From contig JAKCCV010000019.1 of NCBI GenBank assembly GCA_021838785.1, positions 1 through 64,000 of the forward strand: a DNA stretch of 64,000 bases. The letters run 5' to 3'. The notes below the pieces were generated by a model that was given only the letters and a program-made list of their open reading frames with translations, had not been told where the DNA came from and searched no databases. Source of the DNA: Acidobacteriota bacterium. GTDB taxonomy: Bacteria; Acidobacteriota; Terriglobia; UBA7540. Positions 5,893 through 48,237 of the stretch are shown here, piece by piece (the stretch's first letter is position 1; every line of letters begins with the position of its first letter). The translations under genes and the position numbers were made by a program.

Positions 5893-8800
5893 ATGGATTC
5901 CGCGAACTTCGTTCACCTGCACCTTCATACGGATTACAGTTTGCTGGATGGCGCCTGTGCCATTTCTCGGCTGATGGAGCGGGCTGCCGAGCTCAAAATG
6001 CCGGCCGTCGCCCTGACCGATCACGGCAACCTGTTTGGGGCCGTGAAATTCCATAAAGCAGCCATTCAGCATGGCTTGAAACCCATCATTGGTTGCGAGG
6101 TGTACGTCGCCGGCACGAACCGCTTTGACCGCTCCCCCGAATCGGAGCGTCCCTATCACCTCGTTCTCCTTTGCGAAAACGATCGGGGCTATCGCAATCT
6201 TATCAAGCTGGCTTCGGCCGCCTATCTGGAAGGCTACTATTACCGGCCGCGAATTGATAAGGATCTCCTGGCACGTCATTCCGAGGGGTTGATCGCTCTT
6301 TCCGCCTGCCTGCGAGGCGAAGTCGCCAATGCGCTCCTCCTGGAGCGGTACGACGCCGCCCGTCAGGCTGCGTACGACCTGCAAGATATCTTCCACAAGG
6401 GTAATTTCTATCTTGAGATCCAAAACCAGGGATTGCCCGAAGAGCAAAAAATCAACCCGCAGCTCGTCCAGCTTTCGCGGGAGACGGGCATTCCTTTGGT
6501 GGCCACCAACGATTGCCATTATTTGACCCAAGCCGATGCGCGAGCCCAGGAAGTACTGGTGTGCATTCAAACCGGCAAGACGCTCTCCGACACCAACCGC
6601 ATGAGGTTTCCTACCGATCAGTTCTATTTCAAATCTTTCGAAGAGATGCGGGCAGTTTTTGCGGAGATTCAGGAGGCGATAGGCCGGACGGTTGAAATTG
6701 CCGAGCGGTGCAACGTTCATCTGGACAAAGAGCAACATGTTTTCCCTCACTTTGAGGTGCCGGCAGGAGAAACGCTGGACAGCTATTTTGAAAAGGTCGC
6801 CCGCCAAGGATTTGAGCAGCGTCGCCAACGGTTGGGGCAACAGCAAGCCGAAGGCAGGCTGCGTCATCCTCTGAAGGCCTACGAGGAACGGCTGGAGCAG
6901 GAAATCAGCCTGATTCAGCGGATGCGCTTCGCGGGCTACTTCTTGATTGTCTGGGATTTTATCCGTTTTGCCCGGGAGGCCGGCATTCCGGTGGGACCGG
7001 GGCGTGGCTCGGCAGCAGGCAGTTTGGTTTCCTACGCGCTCGGCATCACGGACATTGACCCGCTCCAGCACGGCTTGTTGTTTGAGCGGTTCCTCAATCC
7101 GGAACGCATTAGCTTCCCGGACATTGACATTGATTTCTGCATGCGCCGTCGGAACGAAGTGATTGACTATGTGACCGACAAATATGGACGGGAGAACGTC
7201 AGCCAAATTATCACCTTCGGCACGATGGGCGCGAAGGCCGTCGTGCGCGACGCCGGCCGAGTGCTGGGCATGCCTTTCGCCGAGGTGGACCGAATCGCCA
7301 AACTAATTCCGAACACCTTGAACATCACGCTCGAAGAGGCCCTTCAACAGACGCCGGAACTTCGGCAGTTGCAACAAGGCGATCCTCGCATCGCTGATTT
7401 GCTTCAGATTTCCATGCAATTGGAAGGGCTGGCGCGCCACGCCTCCACGCACGCCGCCGGGGTGGTTATTTCACCCCAGCCTCTTCAGGAAATCGTTCCC
7501 CTGTTCAAGAGCAATAAGAACGAAATTACGACCCAGTATGCGATGGACGATCTGGAGAAAATTGGCCTGCTCAAGATGGACTTTTTGGGCCTCACCACCT
7601 TAACGGTCTTAGACGATGCCCTGCGCTTAATCCATACGACGCGGGGAGAGAAGCTGGAATTGGACGCTATCCCCACAGACGATGCGGCGACTTATGAGCT
7701 GCTCGGTAAAGGGCTGACGGCCGGCATCTTTCAATTTGAGAGTCGCGGCATGACGGATATTCTGCGCCGCGCCCACCCCAGTCGGCTGAGCGACTTGACG
7801 GCGTTGAACGCGCTCTATCGCCCCGGCCCCATCCAAGGTGGGATGATTGATGACTTTGTCGCCCGCAAAAGCGGCAAAAAGCAGGTTGCCTATGACCTGC
7901 CCGAACTCCAAGAAATCTTGGAAGAGACTTACGGCGTCATTGTTTATCAGGAGCAAGTGATGCAGATCGCCGCCCGCGTGGCGGGTTTCAGCCTCGGCGA
8001 AGCGGATGTGTTGCGCCGCGCCATGGGCAAAAAGAAACCCGAGGAAATGGCCGCCATGCGCGAAAAGTTCTTGGCTGGGGCGAAGCAGCGCCGCGTGCCC
8101 CCGAAAAAGGCGGAAAAACTTTTTGACCTGATGGCCCAATTTGCCGGCTACGGATTTAACAAATCGCATTCGGCCGCCTATGCCCTGATTGCTTATCAGA
8201 CGGCCTTTTTGAAGGCGCATTATCCGGTGGAATTTATGGCCGCGTTGCTCACCTCGGAAATCGGCAACACCGAAAAGCTGACGTTTTATCTGAGCGAGTG
8301 CCGGGATATGGGCATCGGCATTTTGCCCCCGGATGCCAACTCCTCCGACATGGACTTTACCCCCCAGGGCAACCAGATACGCTTCGGGTTAATGGCCATC
8401 AAGAATGCGGGGGAAGCCGCCATTTGTTCGGTGCTGGAGGCAAGAAAGACGCTCGGGCGGTTCGACAACTTCTATCAGTTCTGCGAGCATGTGGATTTGC
8501 GCCTGCTGAACAAGCGGGTGATGGAGAGTTTGATTAAGGCGGGGGCGCTCGATTCGTTGGGGGCGCGGCGCGCTCAAATGATGGCGGCGCTTGATGCGGC
8601 GATGGAGCACGGCGCACGGCGGCAGCGCGAGGCGCAGAGCGGCCAGCATGGGTTATTTATGAATGGCCGCGAGGCCGTCACCGTCCTCCAGCCAGAGTTG
8701 CCGAACGCTCCCGAGCTGTCCGAGGCTGACCGCCTGGCCGGTGAGAAGGAGGTGTTGGGCGTTTATGTGACCGGCCATCCGCTCGATAAGTATCGGAGCC

Positions 8801-9381
8801 AGTTGGCGGCCCTGACGCACTACGATAGTTCGTCCGTCGAAGAGTTGTCCCATGACGCGCCGGTAACCCTAGGTGGGATTCTGAGCAGCCTTCGTATCCG
8901 ACCGAGTCGCAAGGGTGACTTGTGGGCCGCCGGCGTGCTCGAAGATTGGCGAGGCACGGTGGAATTGTTGGTGTTTCCCCAGGCGTACCAACAACTGAAG
9001 GACGTCCTCAAGCCGGATGTGGCCGTGTTCGTTAAAGGTCGGGTTCGGCTGGAGGAGAATTCTCGCCCCAAAGTCGTGGTGAGCGAAGCTAAACTTCTGG
9101 AGCAGGCGGTGAATGGAAACGGCAAAGGTCTTCGCTTGCGGGTGAATTTGGATCACGCGGATGGAGGCTTGATGGACCGCCTGGAAGCCCTGCTGCGCGA
9201 ATGCCCCGGTCAGGATCGTGTCATCTTTGAAGTGGAGCGGACGGGTAGCTTTCGCGCTCTCTTGCAGCCGTGGCCGAAGTTGGGCGTCCGTGACGGAGAA
9301 GAGTTCCGAGCGCGGGCGGCAGCGTTGCTCGGCGAAGACGCCGTCATTCAGGAGACGGAGAAGCCGATGGTTGCCAAGTGA
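5893..9381 (+). CDS. dnaE: DNA polymerase III subunit alpha
   Basis: Replicative polymerase of about 1162 residues. An N-terminal PHP domain opens with HLHTDYSLLDGA and continues with LTDHGNLFGA. The family C palm carries the catalytic carboxylates in PDIDIDF (Asp410, 412, 414). Fingers, a helix-hairpin-helix region (KNAGEAA) and a C-terminal OB-fold (about 980-1060) follow. I chose the ATG at 5893 rather than the in-frame codon at 5875, because the preceding six residues are not conserved and the PHP domain starts at once after this Met. It is the standard DnaE1 layout, not the shorter DnaE2. accA follows about 40 bases downstream, an arrangement also seen in other bacteria, so the two may share a transcript. 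Confidence 0.96.
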   Translation: MDSANFVHLHLHTDYSLLDGACAISRLMERAAELKMPAVALTDHGNLFGAVKFHKAAIQHGLKPIIGCEVYVAGTNRFDRSPESERPYHLVLLCENDRGYRNLIKLASAAYLEGYYYRPRIDKDLLARHSEGLIALSACLRGEVANALLLERYDAARQAAYDLQDIFHKGNFYLEIQNQGLPEEQKINPQLVQLSRETGIPLVATNDCHYLTQADARAQEVLVCIQTGKTLSDTNRMRFPTDQFYFKSFEEMRAVFAEIQEAIGRTVEIAERCNVHLDKEQHVFPHFEVPAGETLDSYFEKVARQGFEQRRQRLGQQQAEGRLRHPLKAYEERLEQEISLIQRMRFAGYFLIVWDFIRFAREAGIPVGPGRGSAAGSLVSYALGITDIDPLQHGLLFERFLNPERISFPDIDIDFCMRRRNEVIDYVTDKYGRENVSQIITFGTMGAKAVVRDAGRVLGMPFAEVDRIAKLIPNTLNITLEEALQQTPELRQLQQGDPRIADLLQISMQLEGLARHASTHAAGVVISPQPLQEIVPLFKSNKNEITTQYAMDDLEKIGLLKMDFLGLTTLTVLDDALRLIHTTRGEKLELDAIPTDDAATYELLGKGLTAGIFQFESRGMTDILRRAHPSRLSDLTALNALYRPGPIQGGMIDDFVARKSGKKQVAYDLPELQEILEETYGVIVYQEQVMQIAARVAGFSLGEADVLRRAMGKKKPEEMAAMREKFLAGAKQRRVPPKKAEKLFDLMAQFAGYGFNKSHSAAYALIAYQTAFLKAHYPVEFMAALLTSEIGNTEKLTFYLSECRDMGIGILPPDANSSDMDFTPQGNQIRFGLMAIKNAGEAAICSVLEARKTLGRFDNFYQFCEHVDLRLLNKRVMESLIKAGALDSLGARRAQMMAALDAAMEHGARRQREAQSGQHGLFMNGREAVTVLQPELPNAPELSEADRLAGEKEVLGVYVTGHPLDKYRSQLAALTHYDSSSVEELSHDAPVTLGGILSSLRIRPSRKGDLWAAGVLEDWRGTVELLVFPQAYQQLKDVLKPDVAVFVKGRVRLEENSRPKVVVSEAKLLEQAVNGNGKGLRLRVNLDHADGGLMDRLEALLRECPGQDRVIFEVERTGSFRALLQPWPKLGVRDGEEFRARAAALLGEDAVIQETEKPMVAK

Positions 9382-43547: not shown

Positions 43548-43908
43548 GTTCGCGCTCCCTTCGAGTTAGAGTGAATCGCCCGGCTTCAGCTTTTGCCGTC
43601 GGCCAAGGTGCGTGGGCGCTGAAGCGTAGGCTCGTGGGCCGTCTGCCGAAAGCCGACTTATACTAACCTCCCGCTGGTTATAGTGCAATGGCGGAGGCAA
43701 CGGTTCTCTATGTTTCGACAGGCGGCGGATAGAATGGCGGCCGTCGCCGGAACGACGAGCTCTCCTGTTCCCTGAAAAGTTGCAGGGCGGGTTTGGAAGC
43801 GCTTGACTTTCGCTTTTTTTTCGCCTATCCTTCTTACCTGGGGCTGGAAAAGCGGCCGCGTGATGAAAATTGCGGCGCCACGGCCAAGAAGGTGCCCGGA
43901 GGTCCACC
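43548..43908. other. Divergent regulatory region upstream of the PolB operon
   Basis: About 360 bases between the DUF4870 gene (-) and the RadA-like gene (+). It holds the promoter at 43803 and, 32 bases before its -35, an imperfectly spaced inverted pair GGAAC/GTTCC at 43749-43753 and 43767-43771. No coding frame is supported. Confidence 0.5.
43803..43831 (+). promoter_or_regulatory. Sigma-70-type promoter of the RadA-like/PolB operon
   Basis: TTGACT at 43803-43808 and TATCCT at 43826-43831 with exactly 17 bases between them. The predicted transcript start is near 43838, about 70 bases before the first gene. It is one of the best promoter matches in the window. Confidence 0.6.
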
Positions 43909-44592
43909 ATGTTCTCCAACGAGTCACAAGCGATGCCCAGGCCGATGCGTGCAGGGTCTGGTGGGTGCGCGGTGTCGGCGACGGCTCCTTCTGCTCCGGT
44001 GCGCCGCGCCCCGTGGACGTTGCCGACGCAGGGTCTGGCGGTTTTCCACGGGGCGTGCGACACGGCGCGGCTGAGCCACTATTTTTTGCCGCGACTGATT
44101 TTGTCGGGCCAGCGCGTGCTGGTACTCGACGGAGCCAACTCAGCCGACCCGCGATTGATGGCGCGGCTGGCGCGCGAGCGCGGCATGACGTTTGATGCTT
44201 TCAGTCGTCAAATCCAAATTGCGCGCGCCTTCACCTGCTTTCAGCTCACCGAGCTCACGGCGCGGCTGCCGCGCTGGGTGGCGGAGTTTCCGGCGAAGGT
44301 CTTAATCGTCACGGCGCTGCCCGAGCTTTACTTCGACGAAGACGTACGAGATGGCGATGCGCACGCGGCGTTCGAGCAAGCGCTCCGCCATCTGCGACGC
44401 TGGGCGACGGAGCAAGGCGCGGTGGCCGTCTTTTCTTCCGCTGTGAACTTTGCGCCTTCGGCGGGGCGGCGGAGCTTTTTCCCGCGCCTGGCCGCGGCGG
44501 CGAACGAAGCCTGGGAATTCCAGGTGGATGAAAACGGCCGCATGACGCCGGGGCCGCTGCCGCGGGGGAGCTTTCCATCCCTTGCCCAATAA
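43909..44592 (+). CDS. Rad51/RadA-like protein without ATPase motifs, PolB operon gene 1
   Basis: From the ATG at 43909 (GGAGG upstream) the product has 227 residues. The order of segments follows a RecA/Rad51 core. The P-loop position reads VFHGACDTARLSHY (45-58) and lacks GxxxxGK(T/S). The second strand is RVLVLDGANSADP (69-81). QIQIARAFTCFQL (101-113) resembles the Rad51/RadA ARAxN-x-DHQ segment. The Walker B strand is VLIVTALPELYF (131-142), with Thr where the Asp should be. ATP hydrolysis is therefore unlikely. By position before a specialised polymerase it recalls ImuA in the ImuA-ImuB-DnaE2 system. A structural or loading role for the polymerase is inference. Confidence 0.7.
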   Translation: MFSNESQAMPRPMRAGSGGCAVSATAPSAPVRRAPWTLPTQGLAVFHGACDTARLSHYFLPRLILSGQRVLVLDGANSADPRLMARLARERGMTFDAFSRQIQIARAFTCFQLTELTARLPRWVAEFPAKVLIVTALPELYFDEDVRDGDAHAAFEQALRHLRRWATEQGAVAVFSSAVNFAPSAGRRSFFPRLAAAANEAWEFQVDENGRMTPGPLPRGSFPSLAQ

Positions 44593-44598
44593 AATGCC

Positions 44599-44952
44599 AT
44601 GGGCCGAACCCTCGCCACATTTCGCGACTTGATTGAGCAAGAGATGCAGAACTGGGAGCGTGTCTTTGGGCGGGCGCTGCGGCGGGAAGAGCGCGTGCAC
44701 TTTGAGGCCATGTTCCAACGGGTGCGCCTCTATGTGCAGGCCTGTACGCATCAATCCTCCGTGCACGCCATGGACGCCATCAACGTGGCCATCGGCTTGG
44801 ACCACGAAATTCGGCTGCGCGCGATTGAAGCGCGTTTAGGAATCAACCTTGCGACTCAGTGGATGGATTCTCGACCTTTACCCGTCCGCGGAGGGGATGA
44901 CGCTGTGGCTGATCCCGCAGAACGGCAATCCCCAACGCCGTCGGCTGATTGA
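44599..44952 (+). CDS. Small helical protein, PolB operon gene 2, unknown function
   Basis: A 117-residue frame starting 6 bases after the RadA-like gene. Residues 5-85 look like a compact helical domain (TFRDLIEQEMQNWERVFGRA, then HFEAMFQRVRLYVQACTHQ) rich in Glu, Arg, Met and aromatic residues. The last 35 or so residues are encoded within the first 104 bases of the polymerase gene in another frame and look like non-specific coding. No family is recognised. There is no strong ribosome binding site, so translation probably depends on coupling to the gene upstream. It may be a small subunit of the polymerase complex. Confidence 0.6.
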   Translation: MGRTLATFRDLIEQEMQNWERVFGRALRREERVHFEAMFQRVRLYVQACTHQSSVHAMDAINVAIGLDHEIRLRAIEARLGINLATQWMDSRPLPVRGGDDAVADPAERQSPTPSAD

Positions 44953-47143
44953 TCCCTCCTTTCACCCGCGCTTCTACGCGCGCGGTCCGCAGGCGGCGCT
45001 GGAGCGGCTGGCGGCGGAATTGGCACGGCGCGCTCCGGTAAGGTGCGCCTTCACCGAGAAGCAGGACCTCTGGGAAGGCCCGGTCACGGTGCTGGAAGTT
45101 ACGGTACATTGTCCCGCGCAGTTCGCGGCGCTCGCGCGCCTGGCTCGCCGCGCCCCAAGTTCGCTTCGCCTCTATAACACCGACCTGATGCTGGCAGCGG
45201 TCTATAGTTGGGAGAAAAAGGTTTTCCCACTGGCTCAGGTGGAAGCGGAGGTGGAAGGAGACCGCCTCCGCGCCCTGGCTGGCCGCGACGATCCTTGGCG
45301 CGTAGATTACGAATTGCCGCCGCTCGGCGTGATGCAGGCGCGCCTGGAGGGTCTGGACCGCGTGGACCCGCAGCACGGGCGACGCGGGGCGCTCGAAGTC
45401 GCGCATGAGGGCGAGTGGCAAATTTTGGATGACGCCGATGAGCCGGTGGCGGCGGGCTTTGAGCGCCTCTTGCGCACTTGGGACCCCGACCTCATCGTCA
45501 CCGAATGGGGCGATGCCACGCTGCTGCCCGGACTGATGCGGCAGGCGCGGCGGTGCGGGTTCGAGCTTTCGCTCAACCGCGACCACGCTCCGGCCGAACG
45601 CCATCGCGCCCGCAGCTACACGAGCTACGGCCGCGTGCTCTTCAAGGCCAGCGCTACCACGCTGCGGGGGCGCCTGCACGTGGATATTCGCAATTCCTTC
45701 ATCGCCCATGCGTGCGAGCTGGACGGCCTATGGGAGCTGGCGCGCGTCACCAAGCTGCCCGTGCAATATTGCGCCCGCACCAGCACGGGCACCGGCATTT
45801 CCTATCTCCAGATGGAACTGGCCTGGCGTGATGGACTGCTGATTCCGGAGCAGAAGGCCGAGCCGGAATCACCCAAGCACCCGGACGAATTGCTACGAGC
45901 CGATCGCGGCGGGCTGGTGTTTCCGCCGCGCTTGGGATTTTTCTCGAATGTGGCCGAACTCGATTTTGTGAGCGAGTTTCCCAGCATCATGGCGCGCTTC
46001 AACGTCTCTCCAGAAACGGTCAACTGCCGCTGCTGTCCGGACGCTCCGCGCGTGCCGGAGCTGGGTTATCGCATCTGTCAGAAGCGCCGTGGCCTGACCG
46101 GCCGCGTGGTGGAGCGACTGATTGCCAAGCGCGGAGAATACAAGCGGCGCATGATCCTGGCGCCGGACGGCTCGAACTCGGCTTCGCCCGGGCGGTTCCT
46201 TTCGCCCGTTGAGTGGAACTCCTACGCGCAGCGGCGTTCGGCCCTCAAGTGGCTGCTGGTCTGCTGTTTCGGTTACACCGGCTACAAGAACGCGCGCTTT
46301 GGCAAGATTGAGGCGCATGAGGCCATCAACGCCCTGGCGCGAGAAAAACTGCTTGCGGCCAAGGAAGCCGCGGAGGCGCGCGGCTACCGCGTGCTGCACG
46401 CGCTGGTAGATTCGCTCTACGTCGAGCGCGAAGGTGCGACGCGCGCGGACTACGAATGCCTGGCGAGGGAGATCGAGCGGCTCACCGGTTTGCCGCTGGC
46501 TCTGGAGGCGGTTTACCGTTACGTGATTTTTCTGCCCTCGAAACAGAACCCGGAAATTCCCGTGCCCAACCGCTTCTTCGCCGTCGCGGAAGACGGCACG
46601 CTGAAGGTTCGCGGCCTGGAGTGCCGCCGGCATGACACGCCGCCGCTGGTAGCGCGAATGCAGGAAAAGGTTTTGGAGATTCTGGCGGAGGCGCGCGACC
46701 AGGAGACTTATGCGCAGAAGCTTGAAGAAGCGCGGCGAGTGCTCGAACGGTATCTTGAGCGCATCGAAGCCGGCAGCGTGCCGGCGGAGGAGTTGGTCAT
46801 CAGCAAGCGGCTTTCACGCCTGCCCTCGAACTACCGCCAAGCCAGCCAGGTGGCCATCGCGGCTCAGCAACTCGACCGCTCCGGCGTGCGCCTGCGAGCC
46901 GGCGAGACCATCGAATACATTCTCACTTGTGCTGGCGCCAAGCTGGCTGACGATCGCGTGCGCGCCTACACGTTGTGGGAAGGCTGGCGAGGCTATGATG
47001 CCGCCGCTTACCGTGCCGCGCTGCTCGACGCTTTTCAGCCGTTCGAGTTTTTCGCGCCAACGCCGGACCACGGGGCGAGCGCCGCACCGCACCCTCAGAC
47101 CTGCACCGCGACGCTGGTTTCCGTGCGGATGACCGGACGATAG
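44849..47143 (+). CDS. Family B DNA polymerase, PolB2/Dpo2-like, exonuclease-degraded and with altered motif C
   Basis: A 764-residue family B polymerase starting at TTG 44849 with AGGA seven bases upstream; the N-terminus GWILDLYPSAEG looks native. Motif A is intact (DFVSEFPSI, Asp372). Motif B is KWLLVCCFGYTGY (Lys467, Gly475, Tyr476). Motif C is HALVDS at 517-522, so the usual DTD is L519-V520-D521, with only the second Asp kept. The KKRY thumb motif is reduced to NRFF, but GLECRRHD (589-596) is present. In the exonuclease domain Exo I reads ARLE, Exo II keeps one Asp (EWGD), and Exo III is not recognisable. This fits the archaeal PolB2/Dpo2 group and its few bacterial relatives. Residual, non-proofreading synthesis (translesion) or a structural role are both possible. 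Confidence 0.85.
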   Translation: MRLSGWILDLYPSAEGMTLWLIPQNGNPQRRRLIDPSFHPRFYARGPQAALERLAAELARRAPVRCAFTEKQDLWEGPVTVLEVTVHCPAQFAALARLARRAPSSLRLYNTDLMLAAVYSWEKKVFPLAQVEAEVEGDRLRALAGRDDPWRVDYELPPLGVMQARLEGLDRVDPQHGRRGALEVAHEGEWQILDDADEPVAAGFERLLRTWDPDLIVTEWGDATLLPGLMRQARRCGFELSLNRDHAPAERHRARSYTSYGRVLFKASATTLRGRLHVDIRNSFIAHACELDGLWELARVTKLPVQYCARTSTGTGISYLQMELAWRDGLLIPEQKAEPESPKHPDELLRADRGGLVFPPRLGFFSNVAELDFVSEFPSIMARFNVSPETVNCRCCPDAPRVPELGYRICQKRRGLTGRVVERLIAKRGEYKRRMILAPDGSNSASPGRFLSPVEWNSYAQRRSALKWLLVCCFGYTGYKNARFGKIEAHEAINALAREKLLAAKEAAEARGYRVLHALVDSLYVEREGATRADYECLAREIERLTGLPLALEAVYRYVIFLPSKQNPEIPVPNRFFAVAEDGTLKVRGLECRRHDTPPLVARMQEKVLEILAEARDQETYAQKLEEARRVLERYLERIEAGSVPAEELVISKRLSRLPSNYRQASQVAIAAQQLDRSGVRLRAGETIEYILTCAGAKLADDRVRAYTLWEGWRGYDAAAYRAALLDAFQPFEFFAPTPDHGASAAPHPQTCTATLVSVRMTGR

Positions 47144-48237
47144 AGCGTATCGCGCTCCATGGGCTCAAGCCCGGCCTCATGGATGAGCCGGATGATTTGC
47201 TGGCGGGTCATGGTCTGCGGAGTCTTGGCGCCGGCATCGTGGTAAATCTTTTCCTCGACGACCGTGCCGTCCAAATCATTTGCGCCGAAGCGCAACGCCA
47301 CCTGGGCCACGCGCGGCGTCATCATAATCCAATACGCTTTGATATGCGGGAAATTGTCGAGCAGTAGCCGCGCCACGGCGATGTTTTTTAAATCCATGAA
47401 GCCGGTAGTTTCCGGCCAGGGCACGCGCCGGCCCAGCTCCGTGTTGGCGGGATGAAACGCCAGCGGAATGAAGGTGCGAAAGCCGCCCGTCTCATCTTGC
47501 AAAGCGCGCAACTGCAACAGATGATCCACGCGATCTTCCGCCGACTCAATGTGACCGTAAAGCATGGTCGCGGTCGAGGCCAGGCCCATTTCGTGGGCGA
47601 TGCGATGCACCTTCAACCAGGTGTACGCCCCGATTTTGTGGTCGCAGATCACGCGCCGCACCGCCGGAGCAAAAATCTCCGCTCCGCCGCCCGGCAGCGA
47701 ATCGAGGCCGGCGGCCTTTAACCGCTCCAGAATTTCACGAATCGAAAGCTGCGTGATGTGCGAGTAATAGGCAATCTCGACGGCCGTGAAGGCTTTGAGA
47801 TGAACCTGGGGAAAGCGCTCCTTCAACCCTCGCAACAAGTCCACGTAATATTGAAACGGCAGGTCCGGATGCAGACCGCCCACAATGTGGAACTCGGTCA
47901 CCGCCTCTGACCAATTCTCTCCCGCCACGCGAAAGGCTTCCTCCAGCGCCATCGTGTAGGCGCCCGGAGCGTCCGGCTTCCGCCCAAACGCGCATAGCTT
48001 GCAACTGGCCACGCACACGTTGGTCGGATTGAGGTGCCGGTTGACGTTGAAGTAGGTCCGGTCTCCGTGCCGTTTGTGGCGGACATAGTGCGCCAGCCAG
48101 CCGAGGGCCAGCAAGTCATGGGAGCGATATAAGCCGACGCCGTCTTCAAAGCTCAGGCGCTCACCCGCTCTTACCTTTTCGGCGATTGGTCGCAGCGCGG
48201 CGTCTTCAATGCCAGGATCCTTCATCGGCTCAGCCAT
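47095..48237 (-). CDS. mqnE: Aminofutalosine synthase MqnE
   Basis: A radical SAM enzyme of 380 residues that joins 3-[(1-carboxyvinyl)oxy]benzoate with S-adenosylmethionine to give 6-amino-6-deoxyfutalosine, in the futalosine route to menaquinone. The [4Fe-4S] motif is C75-x3-C79-x2-C82 (CVASCKLCAF). Typical MqnE segments follow: VGGLHPDLPFQYY, LPGGGAEIF, TATMLYGHIE and FIPLAFHPANTELG. It could be confused with MqnC or CofH relatives, but GGLHPDLP and the length favour MqnE. Its last 49 bases overlap the 3' end of the polymerase gene on the other strand. Other mqn genes are not in the window. Confidence 0.92.
   Translation of the reverse strand: MAEPMKDPGIEDAALRPIAEKVRAGERLSFEDGVGLYRSHDLLALGWLAHYVRHKRHGDRTYFNVNRHLNPTNVCVASCKLCAFGRKPDAPGAYTMALEEAFRVAGENWSEAVTEFHIVGGLHPDLPFQYYVDLLRGLKERFPQVHLKAFTAVEIAYYSHITQLSIREILERLKAAGLDSLPGGGAEIFAPAVRRVICDHKIGAYTWLKVHRIAHEMGLASTATMLYGHIESAEDRVDHLLQLRALQDETGGFRTFIPLAFHPANTELGRRVPWPETTGFMDLKNIAVARLLLDNFPHIKAYWIMMTPRVAQVALRFGANDLDGTVVEEKIYHDAGAKTPQTMTRQQIIRLIHEAGLEPMERDTLYRPVIRTETSVAVQV

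Follow-up and report, generated by a model that had tools for sequence, protein, structure and literature searches.

The product of the gene at 43909-44592 is very likely iRadA, the inactive RadA subunit found in bacterial PolB2 mutasomes, which are translesion polymerases of family B built from several subunits. The gene opens a tight operon in the window (the whole 64,000-nucleotide stretch of DNA analysed here), followed on the same strand by the genes for PPB2 and PolB2. The iRadA-PPB2-PolB2 operon was described in 2014 by Makarova (PMC4104785), for example as LFML04_0990-0993 of Leptospirillum ferriphilum; the PolB2 mutasome was modelled in 2025 by Timinskas, and the arrangement seen here is the only gene order known in bacteria (PMC11791011). 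The family is thus already known and is not a new kind. Most of the defining features that could be checked are present in the window: the order of the three genes, a PPB2 that begins MGRT, and a polymerase that has lost its exonuclease motifs and keeps only the second Asp of motif C. What this analysis adds is an operator box in the promoter and an either-or distribution with ImuA-ImuB-DnaE2. A sequence-only reading of the gene had proposed a Rad51/RadA paralogue without Walker A and Walker B, a proposal that the results below confirm; the known family, the third gene (PPB2) and the LexA-type operator go beyond it.

Table 1. Coordinates of the iRadA operon and its promoter within the window
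Feature	Position	Strand	Description
-35 element TTGACT	43803..43808	+	Read directly
Putative LexA operator TTCGCTTTTTTTTCGCCTA	43809..43827	+	Direct repeat TTCGC-N6-TTCGC, period 11; fills the 17-bp -35/-10 spacer
-10 element TATCCT	43826..43831	+	Read directly; 17 bp from the -35 element
Ribosome binding site GGAGG	43898..43902	+	Read directly; 6 nt before the iRadA ATG
iRadA	43909..44592	+	227 aa; ATG start; first gene of the operon; inactivated RadA/Rad51-fold protein
PPB2	44599..44952	+	117 aa; small helical protein; starts MGRT, with R3 and R9
PolB2	44849..47143	+	B-family DNA polymerase; TTG start; 104-nt overlap with ppb2

A Pfam scan of iRadA returned Rad51 as its sole match (E 0.0041, under the Pfam cut-off), and the same model was matched by 11 of 12 family relatives, with a best E of 6e-4. 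When a profile of the 12 relatives was compared with all PDB sequences, significant E values were obtained solely for RadA, Rad51 and Dmc1, the best being 5.9e-5 for RadA. An AlphaFold2 model of iRadA (mean pLDDT 89) showed a RecA-type fold that aligned with RadA (5qum, 1pzn) over 178 residues at 2.5 A with a Z of 20.0, and Foldseek matched the model to RadA with an E of 6e-11. The profile, Z and Foldseek matches place the likeness to RadA well beyond chance. The best family match was Rad51/RadA; origins from ImuA, RecA or SulA were also considered and gave no family matches (no RecA Pfam match at E 10 or better).

The predicted fold is RadA-like, with the ATPase centre gone. As the sequence-only reading had pointed out, the P-loop position holds GACDTARL (G48-ACDTA-R54-L55) and T135 occupies the position of the Walker B Asp. 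The catalytic Glu of RadA (ID-T-E-N) has disappeared as well, the iRadA segment being D74-G-A-N77 with Ala in place of Glu. iRadA thus lacks the intact Walker A and Walker B motifs of an active RadA/Rad51 recombinase, and from the loss of these residues we infer that it does not hydrolyse ATP. Residues 101-113 (QIQIARAFTCFQL) had been likened to an ARAxN-DHQ segment of Rad51/RadA; in an ungapped alignment this holds for the ARAF part, which is the only strict match, and fails for the HQ part, where Q112 falls on the His. iRadA is also predicted to be without the N-terminal helical oligomerisation domain of RadA: residues 1-30 of the model are of low confidence, and there is no secondary structure before a strand at 42. 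Several positions are nearly invariant, with R106, T109 and Q112 found in 66/66 sequences that have a letter there, C110 in 61/66, N77 in 65/66 and D143 in 66/68, which marks iRadA, at the level of sequence, as a conserved protein rather than a decaying one. Reuse of an archaeal-type RadA relative as a non-hydrolysing polymerase partner, as originally suggested from the letters, is well supported and coincides with the published reading of iRadA (PMC4104785, PMC11791011).

The operon is common across Acidobacteria, Nitrospirota and Chloroflexota and also occurs in Armatimonadetes and others; within the acidobacterial family of the window's genome, iRadA has an open frame in 11 of 18 genera. 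Among 80 PolB2 loci from named genomes, iRadA was found nearby in 69 and PPB2 in 72, and the loci without them were mostly cut by a contig end. The earlier reading had asked for a phylogeny together with the polymerase; the distances of iRadA and PolB2 co-vary with a rho of 0.66 overall and 0.89 within Acidobacteria, against a best of 0.13 and 0.34, respectively, in 500 permutations. The published account has the operon transferred from archaea (PMC11791011); the iRadA/PolB2 sequence set used here is bacterial only. The linkage of the three genes bears on a different reading, in which iRadA would be an independent Rad51 paralogue comparable to those of eukaryotes, one that modulates RecA filaments or recombination once DNA is damaged and is only co-transcribed with PolB2. 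Such a role would fit the presence of Rad51-paralogue complexes among the top structural matches of the iRadA model, and one family genome (G029) carries a boxed iRadA with neither PPB2 nor PolB2 in the stretch that was read. However, the three genes are tightly linked across several phyla and diverge in step, iRadA-PPB2 fusions exist and high-confidence complex models have been obtained for 40 species (PMC11791011), and the G029 copy, with its odd C-terminal extension, may be a relic. We consider an independent paralogue improbable and retain iRadA as a subunit of the PolB2 complex.

The second gene product, PPB2, begins MGRTLATFR, and among its relatives G2 and T4 were found in 72/72 sequences and R3 in 71/72. 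Its AlphaFold2 model contains three helices (8-26, 29-50 and 57-80), and a fold search against the PDB gave weak helical matches with a best Z of 4.0. A PPB2 is expected to resemble the N-terminal domain of a sigma factor in fold; a SigE N-terminal domain appeared at Z 3.3 amid unrelated helical matches. The overlap of ppb2 with polB2 spans 44849-44952, and the part of PPB2 encoded there has a low-confidence prediction, suggestive of disorder. Many acidobacterial relatives keep a ppb2-polB2 start-to-start distance of about 250 nt and an overlap of 68-104 nt, which is smaller or absent in other phyla.

The third gene product matches Pfam DNA_pol_B (E 6.7e-27), and its profile found archaeal PolB as the best PDB match (E 3e-58), with E. 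coli Pol II far behind (4e-9). Its 3'-5' exonuclease appears to be inactivated, the Exo I Asp-x-Glu being absent at the expected place (PPLGVMQARLEG). In the palm, motif A Asp372 is kept, the D(K/R) motif is D352-R353, and motif C is L519-V520-D521, in which the first Asp of DxD is replaced by Leu and the second is kept. Across 79 sequences D372 and D521 are invariant, D352 is present in 78, and the first motif C Asp is present in none. The Leu at this position is the argument for regarding the operon as non-catalytic, with PolB2 as an inactive scaffold and the operon serving stalled forks in a structural or regulatory way; it was on this basis that the family was earlier called inactivated (PMC4104785). 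Yet PolB2 of Sulfolobus islandicus, with Ile at the same place (PMC11791011), polymerises DNA robustly and acts as an extender (PMC8764526), and in the bacterial set Lys467, F474 and G475 are as invariant as Asp372 and Asp521. We therefore think a non-catalytic operon unlikely, with no better prospects than the independent paralogue. Homologues from archaea are active although they too lack the first motif C Asp, and on this ground acidobacterial PolB2 is expected to be a working polymerase. At its far end polB2 overlaps tail-to-tail (47095-47143) with a convergent radical-SAM-like gene on the reverse strand (47095-48237). Past residue ~735 the PolB2 tail shows little conservation in any relative, and the PolB2 match of a same-genus genome (G022, locus L003) has one in-frame TGA near this variable C-terminal end.

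Beta-clamp motifs occur in iRadA or PolB2 in a fraction of PolB2 mutasomes. A motif scan covered the relatives, and the window's own proteins were inspected by eye; no strict QxxLF-like motif was seen near the C-terminus of its iRadA or PolB2. iRadA proteins of Chloroflexota (L092, L096, L100-L102, L106, L114) end in QPRLF, QPSLF or QLKLF, classic beta-clamp motifs that form the very last residues of the protein.

The promoter of the operon contains a direct repeat that lies between its -35 and -10 elements (Table 1). Both lexA and recA are present in the genome, and the lexA promoter (TTGAAA-17-TAGAAT) has the box in the same position within its spacer. Perfect copies of the 19-bp box occur exactly twice in the 3.42-Mb genome, before the iRadA operon and before lexA, and no other site was found at up to two mismatches; at three mismatches there are three further sites, about as many as with the reversed control. 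Ahead of recA, the stretch that was read showed no evident box. Since the perfect copies are limited to this operon and lexA, the operon is very probably SOS-controlled, and the promoter architecture common to the two suggests that LexA would bind the box. Conservation extends to other genomes: most acidobacterial loci have the box upstream of iRadA at no more than three mismatches (the best shuffled sites typically had 7 to 8), and it is found at no more than one mismatch in 36 of 39 family genomes, with the reversed control almost empty. Both lexA and iRadA recur among the genes behind the box in the family. The box also precedes a conserved protein of about 170 aa (NEALLxEFDxEMANTRKTLERVPDDK; L128, L136, L141, L159, L173) that by eye resembles the DinB/YfiT damage-inducible superfamily. 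No published LexA box of the TTCGC-N6-TTCGC type was found in the open literature searched. In 2006 Mazon reportedly described the LexA box of Acidobacterium capsulatum, that is, a LexA operator in Acidobacteria. The alphaproteobacterial LexA box, GTTC-N7-GTTC, is likewise a direct repeat (PMC3323433) and has the same period of 11 as the box here, which reads TTCGC-N6-TTCGC-CTA.

The window's genome (assembly ~98% complete) gave no match to a Y-family polymerase, and the sole match to the DnaE2 model, at 5902-9093 of the window, fell below the cut-off and is read as a replicative-type dnaE, not DnaE2. Because the genome shows neither a Y-family polymerase nor DnaE2, it probably has no SOS translesion polymerase other than the PolB2 complex. 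A phylum-wide search of 297 genomes for PolB2 yielded, beyond this genome, only weaker partial matches that are read as other B-family polymerases, and the exclusion test was therefore confined to the family. Among its 39 genomes a PolB2 match was present in 21, two of them (G004, G007) as short fragments, and a second, weak IMS (PF00817) match of ImuB type was present in eight. The two were never found together: the ImuB-type match occurs in 0/21 genomes with PolB2 vs 8/18 without it (Fisher p 0.0007, falling to 4e-5 when genomes under 80% completeness are set aside; these statistics ignore kinship). The neighbourhoods of all eight ImuB-type genes were read, some of them cut by contig ends. 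ImuA-ImuB-DnaE2 cassettes could be read in several of the eight genomes, most with the box nearby at 0 to 3 mismatches, and two cassettes were confirmed by Pfam. In G029 such a cassette coexists with the orphan iRadA mentioned above (box at 1 mismatch; L031, L184, L186), whose C-terminal extension looks unrelated.

The G029 case looks as if one mutasome had been replaced by the other. We tentatively propose, at a little under an even chance, that the LexA regulon of this family has one exchangeable mutasome slot, filled behind the same TTCGC-N6-TTCGC operator by either the archaeal-type PolB2 or ImuA-ImuB-DnaE2 and never by both, and that in the window's genus PolB2 is the sole SOS translesion polymerase, the archaeal-derived complex having fully taken over SOS mutagenesis. 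No published exclusion of PolB2 and ImuB was found in the open literature searched. The apparent either-or pattern suggests that two unrelated mutasomes may serve one and the same role, a direct prediction that can be tested, and a lineage with LexA control in which neither a Y-family polymerase nor DnaE2 can be detected would be a clean setting for asking about the function of bacterial PolB2.

A further reading would make iRadA itself a divergent ImuA, or another RecA-derived mutasome partner, that merely resembles RadA. The type of job would be the same, with a protein of the RecA family assisting a LexA-controlled damage polymerase; the same box accompanies the ImuA-ImuB-DnaE2 cassettes of sister genomes, and ImuA1 and ImuA2 are also without Walker motifs (PMC12926913). 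The proteins themselves differ, however. ImuA-like proteins of the family match Pfam RecA with E values of 4e-20 to 3e-19, whereas iRadA has no such match and its Pfam and PDB profile matches are to Rad51/RadA only; one ImuA-like protein scanned matched NCBIfam ImuA below the cut-off, and iRadA had no NCBIfam match. An hhalign comparison of the iRadA profile with the genome's own RecA gave a match probability of 0.3%, and iRadA sits beside PolB2 and PPB2 instead of ImuB and DnaE2. A RecA-derived partner is accordingly most improbable. That iRadA is a decaying recombinase pseudogene, as its lost ATPase residues might suggest, can be practically dismissed given its open frame in 11 of the family's 18 genera and in other phyla, its near-invariant RAFTCxQ and DE segments, its own ribosome site and its conserved operator.

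Taken as the inactive RadA subunit of a PolB2 mutasome, iRadA very probably forms, by analogy with the modelled complexes, an error-tolerant DNA-damage polymerase complex with PPB2 and PolB2. The sequence itself shows the operon, the loss of ATPase and proofreading residues, conservation of the docking motifs and the operator held in common with lexA. According to the proposed mechanism, LexA on the box would block RNA polymerase until DNA damage leads to RecA-stimulated LexA cleavage and frees the promoter. PolB2 would then dock onto iRadA via a Rad51-like oligomerisation motif, as one Rad51 protomer binds another, and one MGRT arm of a PPB2 trimer would enter the cleft between PolB2 and iRadA (PMC11791011). 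Here iRadA would act as an ATP-independent scaffold that replaces a recombinase protomer, allowing the complex to extend distorted primer ends past lesions without proofreading. Lesion-bypass primer extension without proofreading has been measured for isolated Sulfolobus PolB2 (PMC8764526); for bacterial PolB2 operons, no biochemistry or genetics was found in the literature searched.

Compared with the bacterial PolB2 mutasome operon as published (PMC11791011, PMC4104785), the locus has the same three genes in the same order and one orientation, what is probably the same link to LexA, and the same peculiarities of its products, namely iRadA without ATPase residues, the MGRT start of PPB2, and PolB2 without exonuclease motifs or the first motif C Asp. 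It differs in that lexA lies elsewhere in the genome rather than adjacent, the putative operator being shared instead, in the 104-nt ppb2/polB2 overlap, and in that a strict beta-clamp motif was not seen. With Sulfolobus islandicus PolB2/Dpo2 (PMC8764526, PMC11791011) it shares an extender-type B-family polymerase in which the first Asp of motif C has given way to a hydrophobic residue, as well as iRadA and PPB2 as partners; the archaeal operon, in contrast, responds to damage via Orc1/Cdc6 homologues and not LexA, and archaeal complexes carry PCNA motifs instead of beta-clamp motifs (PMC11791011). ImuA-ImuB-DnaE2 is similarly a LexA-controlled operon, with the same operator type in sister genomes, that joins an error-prone polymerase to a RecA-family protein, but it uses a C-family polymerase plus an inactive Y polymerase, and its partner is derived from RecA rather than RadA. 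E. coli Pol V (UmuD'2-UmuC-RecA) also docks its polymerase on a protein of the recombinase family through an oligomerisation motif, together with a small subunit that inserts an N-terminal arm (PMC11791011), whereas its recombinase is RecA itself, ATP is used, and the catalytic subunit belongs to the Y family.
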